From assembly GCF_001718195.1 (NCBI RefSeq), contig NZ_MCNV01000012.1, positions 62,001 to 126,000 on the forward strand: a DNA stretch of 64,000 bases. Reading direction: 5' to 3'. Positions 37,688 through 42,768 of this stretch are shown in pieces (within the stretch, counting starts at the first letter, position 1; each line of letters starts with the position of its first letter). The notes below the pieces were generated by a model. It worked only from the letters and a program-made list of their open reading frames with translations, had not been told where the DNA came from and did no database searches. The translations under genes were made by a program, and so were the position numbers. Source of the DNA: Paraburkholderia nodosa (GTDB lineage Bacteria > Pseudomonadota > Gammaproteobacteria > Burkholderiales > Burkholderiaceae).

Positions 37688-38101
37688 CTAGCCAACGTTC
37701 ACCTCAATGCGTCGCGGCTTTGCCTTCTCACGACGAGGAACGGTGAGCTTCAGGACGCCATCGCGCAACTGTGCGTCGATGCGCGAGGCGTCGAAATCGG
37801 GGCTGAGCGTGAAGGCGCGCCTGAAGTGCGGGTGGACCACCTCGCCATGCTGCAGGCGCAGTCCTGATGGAACGGGAATCACTGCCTCGCCCTCGATGTT
37901 CAGACTGCCGTCCTGCACGCGCACGTCGAGCTTTTCGCGCGGCACACCAGGCAGGTCGGCATATAGCGTGATGCCGCGGCTGTCCTCGAAGATGTCAACC
38001 GCAGGTGAGATCCGGGTCAGCTGCTTCGCAGGTTGCGCACCCTCGCGCGAGGCAACGTCAGTGCGCGACTCACGGGCGGCCAGTTCAGTGCTGTCGTTCA
38101 T
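37688..38101 (-). CDS. Hsp20/alpha-crystallin small heat-shock protein (pair 2, type B)
   Basis: A 137-residue small heat-shock chaperone that holds unfolding proteins. The alpha-crystallin domain runs from about residue 33 (PAVDIFEDSRGITLYADLPG), has GSLNIEGEA, and closes with DGVLKLTVPRRE. The tail RRIEVNVG provides an I-x-V motif for oligomer contacts. It is the second gene of an Hsp20 pair (upstream gene at 38142, 40 bp away) and is nearly a duplicate of the protein at 38946. Expression is presumably from the sigma-32-like promoter at 38720. Confidence 0.93.
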   Translation of the reverse strand: MNDSTELAARESRTDVASREGAQPAKQLTRISPAVDIFEDSRGITLYADLPGVPREKLDVRVQDGSLNIEGEAVIPVPSGLRLQHGEVVHPHFRRAFTLSPDFDASRIDAQLRDGVLKLTVPRREKAKPRRIEVNVG

Positions 38102-38141: not shown

Positions 38142-38582
38142 TCACTGGACGGCGATGGCGCGTGGCTTCGACGCCTCGGAACGTCCGACGCTCACCGTCA
38201 GGCAGCCGTTCACATAGCGCGCACTGACCTTGTCGGGGTCCGCGTGCTGCGGCAGCTCGATCACGCGCCGGAATGCCCCCATGAAGCGTTCCGTGGCGTA
38301 GACGCGGGTCTGATCGTCCGCTTCAGGTCCGGGCGGCTTGCGCTCGCCACTGATCGCAAGCACCCCCTTGTCGATCGAAACGTTGATGGCGGCGGGATCG
38401 AGTCCTGGCGCGAACGCGACGATCTCGAGGCTGTCGTCGGTGCTGCCGATGTTGACGGGTGGAAAGGTTTCGCTGCGCGTGGCGCGCAGGCTCGCGGGCA
38501 AGCCCGCAAAGACGCTGGCCATCTGCCGTTGCAGGCGGTCGAATTCGCCCAGCAGATCGGTGCTGAAGAAAAGATCGCTCAT
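38142..38582 (-). CDS. Hsp20/alpha-crystallin small heat-shock protein (pair 2, type A)
   Basis: A 146-residue Hsp20 chaperone starting MSDLFFSTDLLGEFDRLQRQ; the alpha-crystallin domain has PVNIGSTDDSLEIVAFAPG, GVLAISGERK and FRRVIELPQHAD, and the tail ends KPRAIAVQ. The start at 38582 is set by GGGAG at 5 nt and by its match with the type A paralogue at 39369. The 5' leader can pair with its Shine-Dalgarno. It is preceded by a sigma-32-like promoter and followed by the type B gene. Confidence 0.93.
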   Translation of the reverse strand: MSDLFFSTDLLGEFDRLQRQMASVFAGLPASLRATRSETFPPVNIGSTDDSLEIVAFAPGLDPAAINVSIDKGVLAISGERKPPGPEADDQTRVYATERFMGAFRRVIELPQHADPDKVSARYVNGCLTVSVGRSEASKPRAIAVQ

Positions 38583-38692
38583 GACTGGCTCCCTGAAACC
38601 GGGGCCGCGCACGAAAGACGAACGGAACCACGCGCTCCAGTCCGCCTGCCCGTGGGAAACCCCGCCGACAAACAAATCGAAACACGCAGCGC
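38583..38692 (-). promoter_or_regulatory. Conserved Hsp20 leader 2, possible RNA thermometer
   Basis: The leader begins with GCGTGTTTCGATTTGTTTG and contains ACTGGAGCGCG, both shared with two other leaders. Before the ATG, GGCCCC can pair with GGG(A)GCC, which hides the Shine-Dalgarno GGGAG in a stem with one bulge. Confidence 0.6.
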
Positions 38693-38719
38693 TTGATCGC
38701 GACTGCCTGAGCGATGCAT

Positions 38720-38748
38720 AAAATAGCGCAAGGAACGGAAATTTCAAG
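38720..38748 (-). promoter_or_regulatory. Sigma-32-like promoter of Hsp20 pair 2
   Basis: CTTGAAA (-35), a 14-nt spacer and GCTATTTT (-10), read on the minus strand. The -35 and spacing match heat-shock promoters; the -10 is a weaker fit. Confidence 0.65.
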
Positions 38749-38945
38749 TGGCCCTGCAACATGTCACCGGGGGCTTTATGGACCTTTTCGACAGGCTTCA
38801 GGAGCAGATCGATACCGTGCAACTGCCGCTCTACTTGCCTCCCGCGCCGCCGTTTATCTGCCGTCGACGGGCCTCCGCTGTCAGAGGGTGGCAGCCAGGC
38901 AGCCGCCACCCGGTGCTTCCTGCCGTTGTTGCCCGCGCGCCGACC

Positions 38946-39353
38946 TCAGCCCGTCCGCACTTCGATTCGTCGCGGGCGCGCCTCGTCGCGGCGCGGAATC
39001 GTGAGCTTCAGTACGCCGTCCTTCAGGCTCGCCTCGATCTTCGAGGTATCGAAGTCCGGGGAGAGCGTGAACGTGCGCGCAAAGCGCGGCTCACGAACCT
39101 CAGCATGCTGCAGCCGCAGATTTGCCGGTGTCGGCACAACCGCCTCAGCCTCGATGGCGAGATTGCCGTCATGGACTCGCACATCGAGCTTGTCCCGGGT
39201 AACACCGGGGAGGTCCGCCCACAACGTGACGCCCTGGGTGTTCTCGTAGATATCGACAGCGGGAGTAATCGTCATCCGCCGTGCGGAGGGCCGGCTTTCG
39301 CTGCGCGCGACCGCTGACGGGTCGCGCCTGCTCAGTTCGGTGGTATCGCTCAT
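38946..39353 (-). CDS. Hsp20/alpha-crystallin small heat-shock protein (pair 1, type B)
   Basis: A 135-residue Hsp20 chaperone, close in sequence to that at 37688: PAVDIYENTQGVTLWADLPG, GNLAIEAEA, DGVLKLTIPRRD, and the I-x-V tail RRIEVRTG. It lies 15 bp after the type A gene of pair 1. The repetition of an A-B pair indicates a tandem duplication of a two-gene operon. AGGGAGC precedes the ATG. Confidence 0.93.
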   Translation of the reverse strand: MSDTTELSRRDPSAVARSESRPSARRMTITPAVDIYENTQGVTLWADLPGVTRDKLDVRVHDGNLAIEAEAVVPTPANLRLQHAEVREPRFARTFTLSPDFDTSKIEASLKDGVLKLTIPRRDEARPRRIEVRTG

Positions 39354-39368
39354 TTTCAGCTCCCTGGA

Positions 39369-39809
39369 TTACTGGACTGTGATGGCTCGAGGCTTCGAAG
39401 ATTCGCGCTTGCCGATGGCGATCGACAGGCAACCGTTCTCGTAGCGTGCCTGAACCTTGTCGGGGTCCGCGTTCTCCGGCAGTTCGATGACCCGCCGGAA
39501 CGCGCCAGTGAAGCGCTCCTGCGCATAAACGCGTGTGTCCTCGCCGGTATCCGGTTGCGCCGGCTTGCGCTCACCGCTGATGGTCAGCAGTCCCTTGTCG
39601 ATCGATACGTTGAGCTCCGCCGCATTGATGCCCGGTGCAAACGCGACAATCTCGATCGAGTCGTCGGTGGCGCCAATATTGACGGGCGGGAACGTGCCGA
39701 AGCGGCTCGCCCGCAGACTGGAGGGGAAAGTACCGAGAAGGCTCGCCATCTGCTGCTGCAGCCGGTCGAACTCGCTGAAGAGGCCGGATCCAGAATAGAG
39801 ATCGCTCAT
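39369..39809 (-). CDS. Hsp20/alpha-crystallin small heat-shock protein (pair 1, type A)
   Basis: A 146-residue Hsp20 chaperone: MSDLYSGSGLFSEFDRLQQQ, PVNIGATDDSIEIVAFAPG, GLLTISGERK, FRRVIELPENAD, tail KPRAITVQ. The ATG at 39809 has AAGGAG, which is locked in a hairpin in the leader. It is headed by the best sigma-32-like promoter in the window and is first in the A-B pair. It is divergent from the hypothetical gene at 40056. Confidence 0.94.
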   Translation of the reverse strand: MSDLYSGSGLFSEFDRLQQQMASLLGTFPSSLRASRFGTFPPVNIGATDDSIEIVAFAPGINAAELNVSIDKGLLTISGERKPAQPDTGEDTRVYAQERFTGAFRRVIELPENADPDKVQARYENGCLSIAIGKRESSKPRAITVQ

Positions 39810-39901
39810 GATGCAGTTCTCCTTGAACGACGCAAGGAGGCGAACCGGCCTACGCGCTCCAGCTCGCCTGCCAGCGTCTGGCAAACAATCGAAACACGCA
39901 G
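39810..39901 (-). promoter_or_regulatory. Conserved Hsp20 leader 1, likely RNA thermometer
   Basis: The shared block CTGCGTGTTTCGATTGTTTG opens the leader. Just before the ATG, CTCCTTG (39833-39839) and CAAGGAG (39819-39825) form a perfect 7-bp stem around a 7-nt loop that buries the Shine-Dalgarno. This is the expected design of a heat-melting switch. Confidence 0.72.
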
Positions 39902-39944
39902 CGCACGGGACGCGGAAACCCGCGCGTCTGCCTGAGCGAATCCT

Positions 39945-39973
39945 AAGATAGGTACTCTGGCGAGGATTTCAAG
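39945..39973 (-). promoter_or_regulatory. Sigma-32-like promoter of Hsp20 pair 1
   Basis: CTTGAAA, a 14-nt spacer and CCTATCTT on the minus strand, close to the heat-shock consensus CTTGAAA-N14-CCCCATNT. Confidence 0.75.
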
Positions 39974-39993
39974 GAGCAAAAGCAGCGTTGCAC

Positions 39994-40022
39994 CTTGAAA
40001 AAATTTTGCCAGCTCATATCAT
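39994..40022 (+). promoter_or_regulatory. Sigma-32-like promoter of the gene at 40056
   Basis: CTTGAAA, a 14-nt spacer and CATATCAT on the plus strand. It is back to back with the Hsp20 promoter at 39945, the two -35 boxes being 20 bp apart. Confidence 0.65.
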
Positions 40023-40055
40023 CGCGGCGGAAACATGTAGCAAGCGGAGGACACG

Positions 40056-40439
40056 ATGGAATTCGATACCGACTGGTTGACCCTGGGCCCTCACCGCGTG
40101 CGTCTGCGCTCGACCAAAGGTTTTCCGACAGAAGCAATGCGTAAGGCGGTGGACGTCATCCGGACTGCGGTCGACAACAACATGAGCGCCCGCGCGCGCC
40201 TGGTGGAGGTGGTCTGCCGACAGGAAAAAAACTATGAAGTCACGATCGGGACGACCGTCGCCAAGGACAAGGTATGCGCGCCGCAGCTCGAAACGTTTAT
40301 CGCAGGCGTGCTTGGTCTCCTGCCGGACCAGATCACCCTGATCGTTACCGCAGTCGATCAGTCTGAAGTGGACCTCCACTTCGGCGTGTACGAGCGGATG
40401 CTGGCCGAAAAGCTGGGCACCGCACCGCCGATCCAGTGA
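40056..40439 (+). CDS. Hypothetical protein, probably heat-inducible
   Basis: A 127-residue protein I do not recognise. It starts MEFDTDWLTLGPHRVRL, is soluble with mixed alpha/beta character, and contains one Cys in CRQEKNYEV and another in KVCAPQLE. GGAGG precedes the ATG. A sigma-32-like promoter lies 34 bp upstream, sharing a divergent region with the Hsp20 pair 1, which suggests a role in the same response. Confidence 0.75.
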   Translation: MEFDTDWLTLGPHRVRLRSTKGFPTEAMRKAVDVIRTAVDNNMSARARLVEVVCRQEKNYEVTIGTTVAKDKVCAPQLETFIAGVLGLLPDQITLIVTAVDQSEVDLHFGVYERMLAEKLGTAPPIQ

Positions 40440-40632
40440 CAGGGCTGCAGACGGGCCGGTGGCAGCCGCCGGAGTGTGCCCCCGGCGCGACAAGGACGTG
40501 AGGCGTCGGCCGAAGGCCGTCCTGCGGAGCAGGTCGGGCTGGATCCGCGATATCGACCCCGCCGGGAACACTGACCGAAAGGCGCTCACCCTGCTTACAT
40601 CCGTTCGGATCACGAGCCGGGCGGGCGCCGCG

Positions 40633-41853
40633 TCAGCCTCGCGGCTTCAGGTCGACCGGAAAGCGGATTTCGAAGGTCGTGCCTTGACCCTCGCGGGACT
40701 CGAAGTGGATCTCGCCCTCGAGTGCGTGGCACAGCTCCCTGACGATCGCCAGACCCAGGCCGGCGCCCGGGATGTCGTCGCTGGCGGCCCGCTCGAACTC
40801 CCTGAACACGCGCTCCGTATCTGACGGCGCAATGCCGACACCGGTATCGGCCACGCGCATGAACCACCGGCCGTCACCGCATCTCGCGATGACCAGTTCG
40901 ATTCCCCCCTCGCGGGTATATTTCGTTGCATTCGACAGCAGGTTCAGCGCAACCTGCTTGAGCTTGATGCGGTTGGACTGCACACGGACCAGTCCGGCCT
41001 CAAGCGAGGCGGACAGACGCAGGCCTTTTCCTTCGATCGCTGGACGGGCGTTCGTGACCAGTTCGTCAAACAGCATGGGCAGATCAACCGGCTCGATGCA
41101 GATCTGGCTGCTGTCGCCGACGACAACCGAATATTCCACCATTTCGTCGACCAGCTGCTTCATGTCCTCCGCCTGCCGGGTCGCGAGCGCAAGTCCGGCC
41201 TCGGCTCGGGACGGAACGCGCGCAATCAGTTGCAGGTCGATCGAAAAGGCGTTCAGAAAGTTGCGCAGGTCGTGCACGAGGCCGCGCGTGACCTGCATGC
41301 GCGACCGGTACAGTTCGCTGACCTCGCGTTGCTGCTCACGCAGTTCCTCGTTAGCACGCTCCAGCTGGCTCGTGTATTCGGCGATGGTCCGGTCACGCTC
41401 GCCGATGACCTCGCGGATCGATGTCAGGGTGACAAAGCTGAGCGCCTCGTCGATCAGATGCAGGGCGCGGGATTCGTGGTCGCGTGTGAACGTGTCGTCG
41501 GACGCCGCGAATGCCCGGACGGCGGCAGCCAGTTCCTGCCGGAACAGCTCCAGTTCACGCACGAGTTCATCAACGCGGTACCCCTGCTGCCAGCGCACGT
41601 TCCCGTGCTGCCTCGCATTGCGTTCAATGGCCCGCTCGACTGGTTGGAGATCCTGCTCTTCGAGCGCGATGCAGATGCCGCTCAGGATAGCGGGCAGGTG
41701 ATCGGCCAGCTGCTCCCACGTCAGCCGGTCGGCTTCGATGAGGTCGGCATCGGCAGCGACGGCCTGCATCCATCTTTCCGTCAGGCGCGCCTGTTCCCGT
41801 CGTAGAAATCCGGCGAGGGCCTGCAGGGTAGTTCCCGTTTGAGAATCGGTCAT
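40633..41853 (-). CDS. Sensor histidine kinase with RsbRD-type N-terminal domain
   Basis: A 406-residue soluble kinase. Residues 10-150 form a helical RsbRD-N-like domain (FLRREQARLTERW... QGYRVDELVRELELFRQEL). A coiled linker (EELREQQREVSELY) leads to the H-box GLVHDLRNFLNAF and an ATPase domain with N-box LNLLSNATKYT, G1 VADTGVGIAP and G2 GAGLGLAIVREL. The start is uncertain because no strong Shine-Dalgarno precedes 41853 and the frame is open to 41991. Its divergent neighbour is a broken response-regulator gene, so the kinase may now be an orphan. Confidence 0.88.
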   Translation of the reverse strand: MTDSQTGTTLQALAGFLRREQARLTERWMQAVAADADLIEADRLTWEQLADHLPAILSGICIALEEQDLQPVERAIERNARQHGNVRWQQGYRVDELVRELELFRQELAAAVRAFAASDDTFTRDHESRALHLIDEALSFVTLTSIREVIGERDRTIAEYTSQLERANEELREQQREVSELYRSRMQVTRGLVHDLRNFLNAFSIDLQLIARVPSRAEAGLALATRQAEDMKQLVDEMVEYSVVVGDSSQICIEPVDLPMLFDELVTNARPAIEGKGLRLSASLEAGLVRVQSNRIKLKQVALNLLSNATKYTREGGIELVIARCGDGRWFMRVADTGVGIAPSDTERVFREFERAASDDIPGAGLGLAIVRELCHALEGEIHFESREGQGTTFEIRFPVDLKPRG

Positions 41854-41927
41854 GATCCGTACCAATGCGTGACACCATTTCGAAAGACCTGCGTGCGAGG
41901 ACACATTATCGTTTCCTCGCACCGTCA

Positions 41928-42375
41928 ATGGACAATGACCAGGATGGCAGCCGGGAACGCAATTTGCTCCGCTTGGCGGAAACAAGTCCACCGACCAGCA
42001 GAATACCTTCTATCCTGCCTGTCGACGACCCGCCTGAACTGCCCGACGCCTACTGCCTCATGTTCACCCTCGAACGGGTACGGCGTGCACTGCGCACACA
42101 ATGGCGTGGAGGCCCTCAACCATGCCCTGCGCCAGCCACCGATCTGATCATAACGGACTGGACGATGTCGCTGACCGGTGTGTGAGCTGTGCCGCCAGAT
42201 CCGGGCGCATGCTGCTCTGGCACACATCCGGATTCTGCTTCCTACGGCGATGCCACCTTCGATGCCGGGGCCGGTGCAGTGGGACGACTGCCTTTATCAA
42301 GCCGGTCCCGGCTGCACTCCGGCCCGCCACCGTGAAAAGGTGGTGTCCTCCGTGAGCCACGGGCGCATATCCTGA
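41928..42375 (+). pseudogene. Frameshifted CheY-like response regulator
   Basis: Pieces of a single receiver domain appear in order but in three frames: ILPVDDPPELPDAYCLMFTLE, shift, GYGVHCAHNGVEALNHALRQPP, shift, DLIITDWTMSLTGV, shift, ELCRQIRAHAALAHIRILL, shift, KPVPAALRPAT. The acidic pocket (VDD), phospho-Asp (ITDW) and late Lys (KPVP) are still readable. It lies divergent to the RsbRD-type kinase, its probable former partner. Confidence 0.85.
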
Positions 42376-42535
42376 CGCGATCCGTCCGACAGGCAACGCC
42401 GGCTTTCAGCGTCCGGTAATCCGGGATGTCGGGTCCAGGTGAGCGGGATCCATCGCGCCACCTTGAAAATTTTCATCAGTGAAACTAACTTATATCCAGC
42501 TCTGGCAGTGTGCCCGGTGATGGATCGGTTGCATG

Positions 42536-42627
42536 CTGCGTGTTTCGATTTGTTTGCCCCGCAGCATGGCAGGCGAACTGGAGCGCGCAAGCCCGTTCTC
42601 TTCCTTGCTGCGTCGAAGGAGAATACG
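42536..42627 (+). promoter_or_regulatory. Third copy of the conserved Hsp20-type leader
   Basis: Shares CTGCGTGTTTCGATTTGTTT, GGCAGGCGAACTGGAGCGCG and the end of the two Hsp20 leaders. TTCCTT (42601-42606) can pair with AAGGAG (42616-42621) and hide the Shine-Dalgarno; the ROSE-type string TTGCT is present. A CTTGAAA lies upstream at 42462 but without a good -10 at 14-nt spacing. Confidence 0.65.
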
Positions 42628-42768
42628 ATGAGCTGCCTTCATTTCCGCCCGGCTTCGACTACGTTGTTCGGGCACGTCCCCCGTACGATCGTCGCCGTGT
42701 CCGGCGTTTTCCAGGCGGTTGCGCAGCGTGCCCGGCGCACGCTGTCGGAGCGCATCGCCGCCGGGTAG
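42628..42768 (+). CDS. Small ORF behind an Hsp20-type leader
   Basis: A 46-residue ORF (MSCLHFRPASTTLF..., ending SERIAAG). The first codons resemble the starts of the type A Hsp20 genes (MS.L.F), after which similarity ends. It has GAAGGAG 7 nt before the ATG. It may be a genuine small heat-induced protein or the residue of a lost third Hsp20 gene. Confidence 0.45.
   Translation: MSCLHFRPASTTLFGHVPRTIVAVSGVFQAVAQRARRTLSERIAAG

Follow-up and report, generated by a model that had tools for sequence, protein, structure and literature searches.

The 64-kb window analysed here (64,000 nucleotides of Paraburkholderia nodosa, contig NZ_MCNV01000012.1, positions 62,001 to 126,000 of the forward strand) carries two tandem two-gene hsp20 operons on its minus strand, which encode small heat-shock proteins (sHsps), and the first gene of each operon is headed by a structured leader of a kind that occurs once more in the window, on the plus strand before a small open reading frame (ORF). 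The three leaders belong to a family that is real, widespread, absent from Rfam and not found in the literature that we searched, and within this family two helices that use the same strand, the long helix P2, rich in G.U pairs, and the compact hairpin B, are both conserved with compensatory changes. A first-pass annotation of the same DNA had described the three leaders as a candidate for a ROSE-like temperature switch, with a terminal hairpin that pairs with the Shine-Dalgarno sequence (SD), spread by duplication; the gene starts, motif and blocks that it listed lie at the positions it gave, with GGAGCGCG common to all three copies and TGTTTCGATTTGTTTG present in copies 2 and 3, of which copy 1 has the version TGTTTCGATTGTTTG, shorter by one base.

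Operon 1 encodes Hsp20 proteins of 146 aa (39369..39809; PF00011, E 2.5e-19) and 135 aa (38946..39353; PF00011, E 6.9e-17), and operon 2 Hsp20 proteins of 146 aa (38142..38582; PF00011, E 1.9e-17) and 137 aa (37688..38101; PF00011, E 3.1e-17). The first proteins of the two operons share 68% identity and the second proteins 62%, whereas first and second proteins within an operon share only about 30%, and it follows that the two-gene operon was duplicated together with its leader. Copy 1 of the leader (class I; 39820..39932, minus strand; cmsearch E 4.1e-20) lies upstream of the hsp20 gene that starts at 39809, copy 2 (class II; 38590..38707, minus strand; E 5.7e-21) upstream of the one at 38582, and copy 3 (class I; 42504..42620, plus strand; E 7.9e-19) upstream of the small ORF at 42628. 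When the window is searched with a covariance model constructed from the family, exactly these three strong copies emerge, and the next match has an E-value of 0.008. The three are part of the training set of that model, and BLASTN provides the independent check: with copy 1 as query it recovers copy 3 (3e-15), copy 2 (7e-4) and a fourth copy on another contig (G000:C24:88224-88340), located before a further hsp20 pair. Duplication was rightly proposed, but it was not recent: the copies represent old, separate groups, copy 3 falling in one that is common to several species, and a recent duplication of the leader was therefore rejected.

Distribution, promoters and downstream genes

The family comprises 165 distinct leaders and is nearly confined to the Burkholderiaceae. 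With a consensus-like leader as query, BLASTN yields matches in 53 of the 150 genomes of the family (11 of 25 genera), and within the genus the covariance model has matches in 61 of 117 genomes. A wider spread is rejected on the basis of an order-wide sample, where only six of 300 genomes contain a match to the model: three of these belong to the family, a fourth match, which is strong, comes from another family, and the remaining two are weak. In a named collection, TGCGTGTTTCNNTTTGTTTG picked up Paraburkholderia, Caballeronia, Burkholderia, Cupriavidus, Ralstonia, Robbsia and Mycetohabitans, together with a few other records, among which one metagenome-assembled genome labelled Bordetella was confirmed by the model and several unrelated genera were not. 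A strong match before an Hsp20 gene (L081, G409:C19:118087-118200; E 4e-20) lies in a genome that is classified in a different family of the order, for which transfer or misassignment are possible explanations.

The leaders appear to be transcribed from a sigma-32-like promoter, as judged from sequence motifs. The hexamer CTTGAA is found upstream of 159 of the 165 distinct leaders (4.4 expected from shuffles), and in 143 of them it precedes a conserved -10 element (CTAYNT) by 16-17 nt, which would place the transcription start just before a conserved GGCAG block. In the window, the putative -35 box CTTGAAA and the matching -10 region are found at 39967..39973 and 39944..39951 (CTATCTTA, recognized by sequence and spacing) for copy 1, at 38742..38748 and 38719..38726 (CTATTTTA) for copy 2, all on the minus strand, and at 42462..42468 and 42485..42492 (CTAACTTA) on the plus strand for copy 3. 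An upstream ORF starting from a conserved GTG was considered and rejected, as its lengths and frames vary freely.

Most leader copies precede Hsp20 genes, whose products start with MSDLY.. behind class I and with MSDLFF.. behind class II leaders. At three Burkholderia loci (L101, L113 and L146) Hsp20 is replaced after a class II leader by a 107-residue, Arg-rich ORF (MNDPFF.FDRL..), the N-terminus of which resembles Hsp20 and which does not match the local Hsp20 profile.

The leaders of the copy 3 subgroup (GGAGCGCGCAAGC) come from Paraburkholderia and Caballeronia, where they frequently lie a short distance from an hsp20 leader in divergent orientation. The ORF behind copy 3 itself (42628..42768, plus strand) encodes 46 aa and ends with a TAG at codon 47; it is truncated compared to its relatives, which read on to about 60 codons. 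In Paraburkholderia these ORFs mostly have 59-62 codons and follow the pattern MSxLHxR..LFERLHR..R.RR, and the same heat-shock leader precedes them at loci L097, L134, L137, L159, L236, L242, L245 and L247; the Caballeronia versions share a different sequence of 56 residues. The microproteins (about 60 residues, Arg-rich) belong to no Pfam or NCBIfam family, gave no match in the viral contigs searched, and are weakly similar to the N-terminal part of Hsp20 (E 1.6e-5 at best, in a comparison with a small set of local Hsp20 proteins). Among the near relatives of the ORF at 42628 dN/dS is above 1, but the wider set maintains the length of 59-62 aa and has a median pN/pS of 0.71, and we therefore regard the ORF as weakly constrained coding sequence and rejected the notion that it is noise.

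Other genes near the leaders include a sensor kinase with an RsbRD_N and a HATPase domain, encoded between the leaders (40633-41853, minus strand), and a 127-aa ORF without a Pfam or NCBIfam match that is divergent from operon 1 (40056-40439, plus strand). Another Hsp20-type gene nearby (L004, 481-645) has the same type of promoter and a different leader.

Conserved helices that share a strand

Upstream of the SD the leaders contain three conserved helices: P1ext, P2 and B. The helices were derived on 47 sequences (A4) and recounted on 54 distinct, unused sequences (A7) that were aligned with MAFFT and not fitted to the structure. P1ext pairs GCAG.CGCG with CGCG.CTGC (94.7% paired in the 54-sequence set). 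The main structure, which was absent from the first-pass annotation, is P2, a G.U-rich helix of 22 bp with one mismatch in which the TGTTTCGATTTGTTTG block is the partner of the GGCAGGCGAACTGGAGCGCGTAG block (and, also over 22 bp, of the GGCAGGCGAACTGGAGCGCG block). In copy 1 its 5' strand CTGCGTGTTTCGATTGTTTGCCAG lies at 39878..39901 and its 3' strand CTGGCAGGCGAGCTGGAGCGCGTAG at 39850..39874 (minus strand); in copy 2 it spans 38628..38689 (minus strand; 5' strand 38667-38689, 3' strand 38628-38650) and in copy 3 42536..42589 (plus strand; 5' strand 42536-42558, 3' strand 42568-42589). The cells of P2 are paired in 97.3% of cases in the 47 sequences and again in 97.3% in the 54 further ones, versus 36-57% when the strands are slid, and its covariation score exceeds that of all 500 shuffles in both sets.

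Hairpin B pairs GGCGAACTGG with CCGGTTCGCC, its 5' strand being common to P2. It is located at 39839..39868 in copy 1 (GGCGAGCTGG ... CCGGTTCGCC, minus strand; identified by pairing, covariation and the tree discussed below), at 38617..38646 in copy 2 (GGCGGACTGGA ... TTCCGTTCGTC, minus strand) and, in a weaker form, at 42572..42601 in copy 3 (GGCGAACTGG ... CCCGTTCTCT, plus strand). Its cells are paired in 89.7% (47 sequences) and 89.8% (54 sequences) of cases, the slid controls of P2 and B together ranging from 19 to 63%, and its covariation likewise surpasses all 500 shuffles. Cells in which both partners have changed number 26 and 33 in the two sets, versus 12 and 16 in the shuffles. When mapped onto the tree of the downstream Hsp20 proteins, B pair 2 AU, pair 3 UA and pair 5 GC require at least four, at least two and at least seven changes, respectively, in a count where the 3' register was picked by best match, which introduces a mild bias. 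Taken together, the pairing, the covariation and the repeated changes over the tree imply that both P2 and B are under selection; and as both use the same strand (GGCGAACUGG), they compete and may constitute mutually exclusive folds. A role as DNA operator alone was rejected since it leaves the compensatory changes unexplained.

A striking property of P2 is that about seven of its wobble pairs are near-invariant (U.G or G.U; columns 42/98, 46/94, 52/88 and others), although each is one mutation away from a Watson-Crick pair. Changing six of the U residues to C in silico drives the shared strand of copies 2 and 3 fully into P2 at 25-45 C, with B gone, whereas copy 1, where P2 already dominates and one of the six positions is a G, does not change. 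In the simplest reading, the retained wobbles would limit the strength of P2 and thereby give B a chance to compete. The other reading is that the wobbles are recognized by a protein, and it leads to the main competing proposal for the input of the switch: an sHsp, or another protein, might bind the near-invariant strands and repress translation until titrated away by unfolded proteins, by analogy with IbpA of E. coli, for which a basic cluster is required. Conservation of the leader exceeds the needs of pairing, the leaders are nearly restricted to positions before sHsp genes or derivatives of these, and gamma-proteobacterial IbpA binds its own 5' untranslated region (UTR) (PMC10474464); the need for a balance between P2 and B would also account for the conservation of the wobbles, however, and we consider such autoregulation rather unlikely. 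Still less probable, in our view, is that P2 serves to stabilize the mRNA as a durable duplex or to be cleaved by RNase III/E, with an induction that is purely transcriptional via sigma-32. Although the long helix near the predicted 5' end and the nearly universal sigma-32-like promoter would suit that role, it leaves unexplained why B, the anti-SD strand CTCC and the wobbles have been retained.

The Shine-Dalgarno hairpin and a candidate two-state switch

Within the window and the family at large, the SD resides in the 3' hairpin (P3) of a leader with two to four hairpins. The perfect 7-bp stem that had been reported for copy 1 is real (39819..39839, minus strand; CTCCTTG at 39833-39839 with CAAGGAG at 39819-39825). 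As a feature common to all three copies the terminal hairpin holds only loosely: the stem of copy 3 is shorter (42600..42621, plus strand; CTTCCTT ... AAGGAG, carrying UUGCU), and copy 2 has a different arrangement, in which the SD region GGGAGCC has GGCCCC as its partner in a predicted local fold (38587..38606, minus strand), the SD pairing in class II being no better than in shuffles. What is well supported is a structured, homologous leader before sHsp genes with a conserved anti-SD strand: the class II pairing CTCC/GGAG is maintained in 94% of cases and the core pairs of class I in 93-100%, and C to T changes in the anti-SD strand retain G.U pairs, while the SD itself cannot vary. In class I the computed probability that the SD is free (0.24) is lower than in shuffles of the upstream 40 nt (0.33), i.e. 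the SD is more hidden.

Sampled ensembles at 37 C, evaluated for leaders in which both states are populated, suggest a connection between the two competing helices and the SD. In both classes the computed accessibility of the SD is higher in B than in P2: 0.31 versus 0.17 in class I (46 of 52 leaders) and 0.38 versus 0.24 in class II (17 of 21 leaders). A direct geometric reason for this computed difference lies in the strand GUUCGCC beside the anti-SD, which B engages and P2 leaves free.

The mechanism that is best supported by these observations is a two-state switch of translation, for which we infer temperature, or the heat-shock state, as input and translation as output. In this scheme the transcript would fold either as the long G.U-rich P2 (CUGCGUGUUUCGAUUUGUUUGCC with GGCAGGCGAACUGGAGCGCGUAG) or as B, a compact hairpin of GGCGAACUGG and CCGGUUCGCC that employs the 3' strand of P2. 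In the P2 state the GUUCGCC strand next to the anti-SD would be free and would help to hold the SD paired (OFF), and in the B state it would be locked away, leaving the SD freer (ON); the near-invariant wobbles would weaken P2 such that B can compete, and heat or the heat-shock state would favour B. The assignment of P2 as OFF and B as ON is a proposal that derives from the modelled accessibilities. We give about even chances to the leader family acting as a cis-acting, two-state translational switch of sHsp genes under a sigma-32 promoter.

The energy model predicts a weak response to temperature in the proposed direction: the mean share of the shared strand that is engaged in B is 0.38 at 20 C and 0.49 at 50 C, and of the 154 leaders 52 show a rise and 18 a fall between 25 and 45 C. 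Copy 2 behaves as predicted, with a P2 share of 0.39 at 25 C and of 0.08 at 45 C. Several observations weigh against a two-state switch of this kind. The computed shift is small and is flat in 84 of the 154 leaders; copy 1 stays in P2 (0.97-0.99) at all temperatures computed and copy 3 shifts in the reverse direction; and the mean accessibility of the SD barely moves (0.25 at 25 C, 0.29 at 45 C). The SD of class II leaders, including copy 2, is not more hidden (0.31) than in shuffles (0.335). The first-pass annotation had named the lack of compensatory changes in relatives among the outcomes that would disprove its proposal; such changes are present in P2 and B, and the leader family withstands this test, but the SD helix displays no covariation beyond shuffles, for which reason P3 was rejected as the conserved core. 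In addition, the leaders are related by descent, which implies that the counts are not independent and the p-values optimistic, and the ensembles are free of pseudoknots and do not include co-transcriptional folding, while a basal part of P2 and B could coexist as a pseudoknot. Nearest-neighbour models predict thermometers poorly, and the temperature predictions therefore neither prove nor exclude sensing.

In a more far-reaching reading, which we hold to be less likely than not and less certain than the switch as such, the leaders would form a new family of two-state RNA thermometers of the Burkholderiaceae, where heat would move the leader from the wobble-weakened P2 to B with the SD hairpin as output arm, and which would control the sHsp operons as well as the cationic microproteins of about 60 residues in Paraburkholderia that possibly originated from an sHsp N-terminus. 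The leader family would make a new Rfam entry, and its clear consensus, covariation and defined competing helices offer testable mutants with respect to heat-shock protein levels in soil, symbiotic and clinical bacteria.

Comparison with ROSE elements and other thermosensors

ROSE-type thermometers of sHsp genes have been described for alpha- and gamma-proteobacteria. Their defining feature is a U(U/C)GCU sequence whose pairing with the SD is imperfect and leaves a G bulged (PMC3669281, PMC11342760). The ROSE elements with which the leaders were compared encompass RF00435, RF02523, the alpha- and gamma-proteobacterial sHsp leaders and the short ROSE of Pseudomonas ibpA. There is a clear likeness in architecture: a leader of about 60-125 nt before sHsp genes, with several hairpins, a sigma-32 promoter and the SD in the last hairpin. 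The proposed membership of ROSE is nevertheless not borne out. With a threshold of E <= 5, no Rfam family matches a 9-kb part of the window or any of eight homologous loci, and in the own genome the best values for RF00435 and RF02523 are 5.86 and 0.83, with none at the leaders and none over the cut-off; the sensitivity of these two models is modest, as they also stay below the cut-off in all 14 control genomes. The U(U/C)GCU sequence with its bulged G is mostly missing: 8 of 30 leaders of class I have it, 0 of 30 of class II and, within the window, only copy 3 (UUGCU). The family differs further from ROSE by its strong sequence conservation, its 22-bp G.U-rich helix, its conserved competing hairpin and its near-restriction to the Burkholderiaceae.

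This bears on the alternative that the leaders are ROSE-like thermometers in the narrow sense, in which P2 and P1 would be static scaffolds (cf. hairpin I of Pseudomonas), only the 3' SD hairpin would melt and B would be accidental. The architecture, the more hidden SDs of class I and the UUGCU-type sequences noted above fit this explanation, and so do the stable 5' hairpins, which are typical of ROSE (PMC3669281). It is contradicted by the lack of a match to the Rfam ROSE models, by the 52 of 60 leaders without U(U/C)GCU and by the repeated compensatory changes that have kept B, which is unlike an accident. The perfect stem of copy 1 also counts against it, because in Pseudomonas ROSE perfect pairing of the SD rendered the hairpin too stable and abolished switching (PMC3669281). 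We judge this explanation to be improbable; the leader may act in the manner of a thermometer and still lie outside ROSE.

In the open-access literature searched we found no sHsp thermometer for Burkholderia, Cupriavidus or Ralstonia, nor any results on expression or probing of the present leaders, and a map of transcription starts in B. cenocepacia, for which the leaders were compared with Rfam, reported only the SAH riboswitch and the sucA motif as leader motifs (PMC4603805). With fourU thermometers the family has in common that the SD lies in a hairpin, but UUUU/SD pairing is absent, the anti-SD strands being CUCC or UUCCUU. The ibpA 5' UTR of E. coli is alike in being an sHsp leader that combines translational control with sigma-32, and differs in sequence and structure. 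The two-state switch proposed here has a parallel in the leaders of lambda cIII and cspA, which are thermosensors with two mutually exclusive folds (PMC4166951) and in which, as in our family, two alternative folds are proposed to set the access to the ribosome-binding site. These leaders differ in that they favour translation at lower temperature and belong to unrelated genes, whereas the two folds of the Burkholderiaceae leaders are indicated by covariation and energy models.

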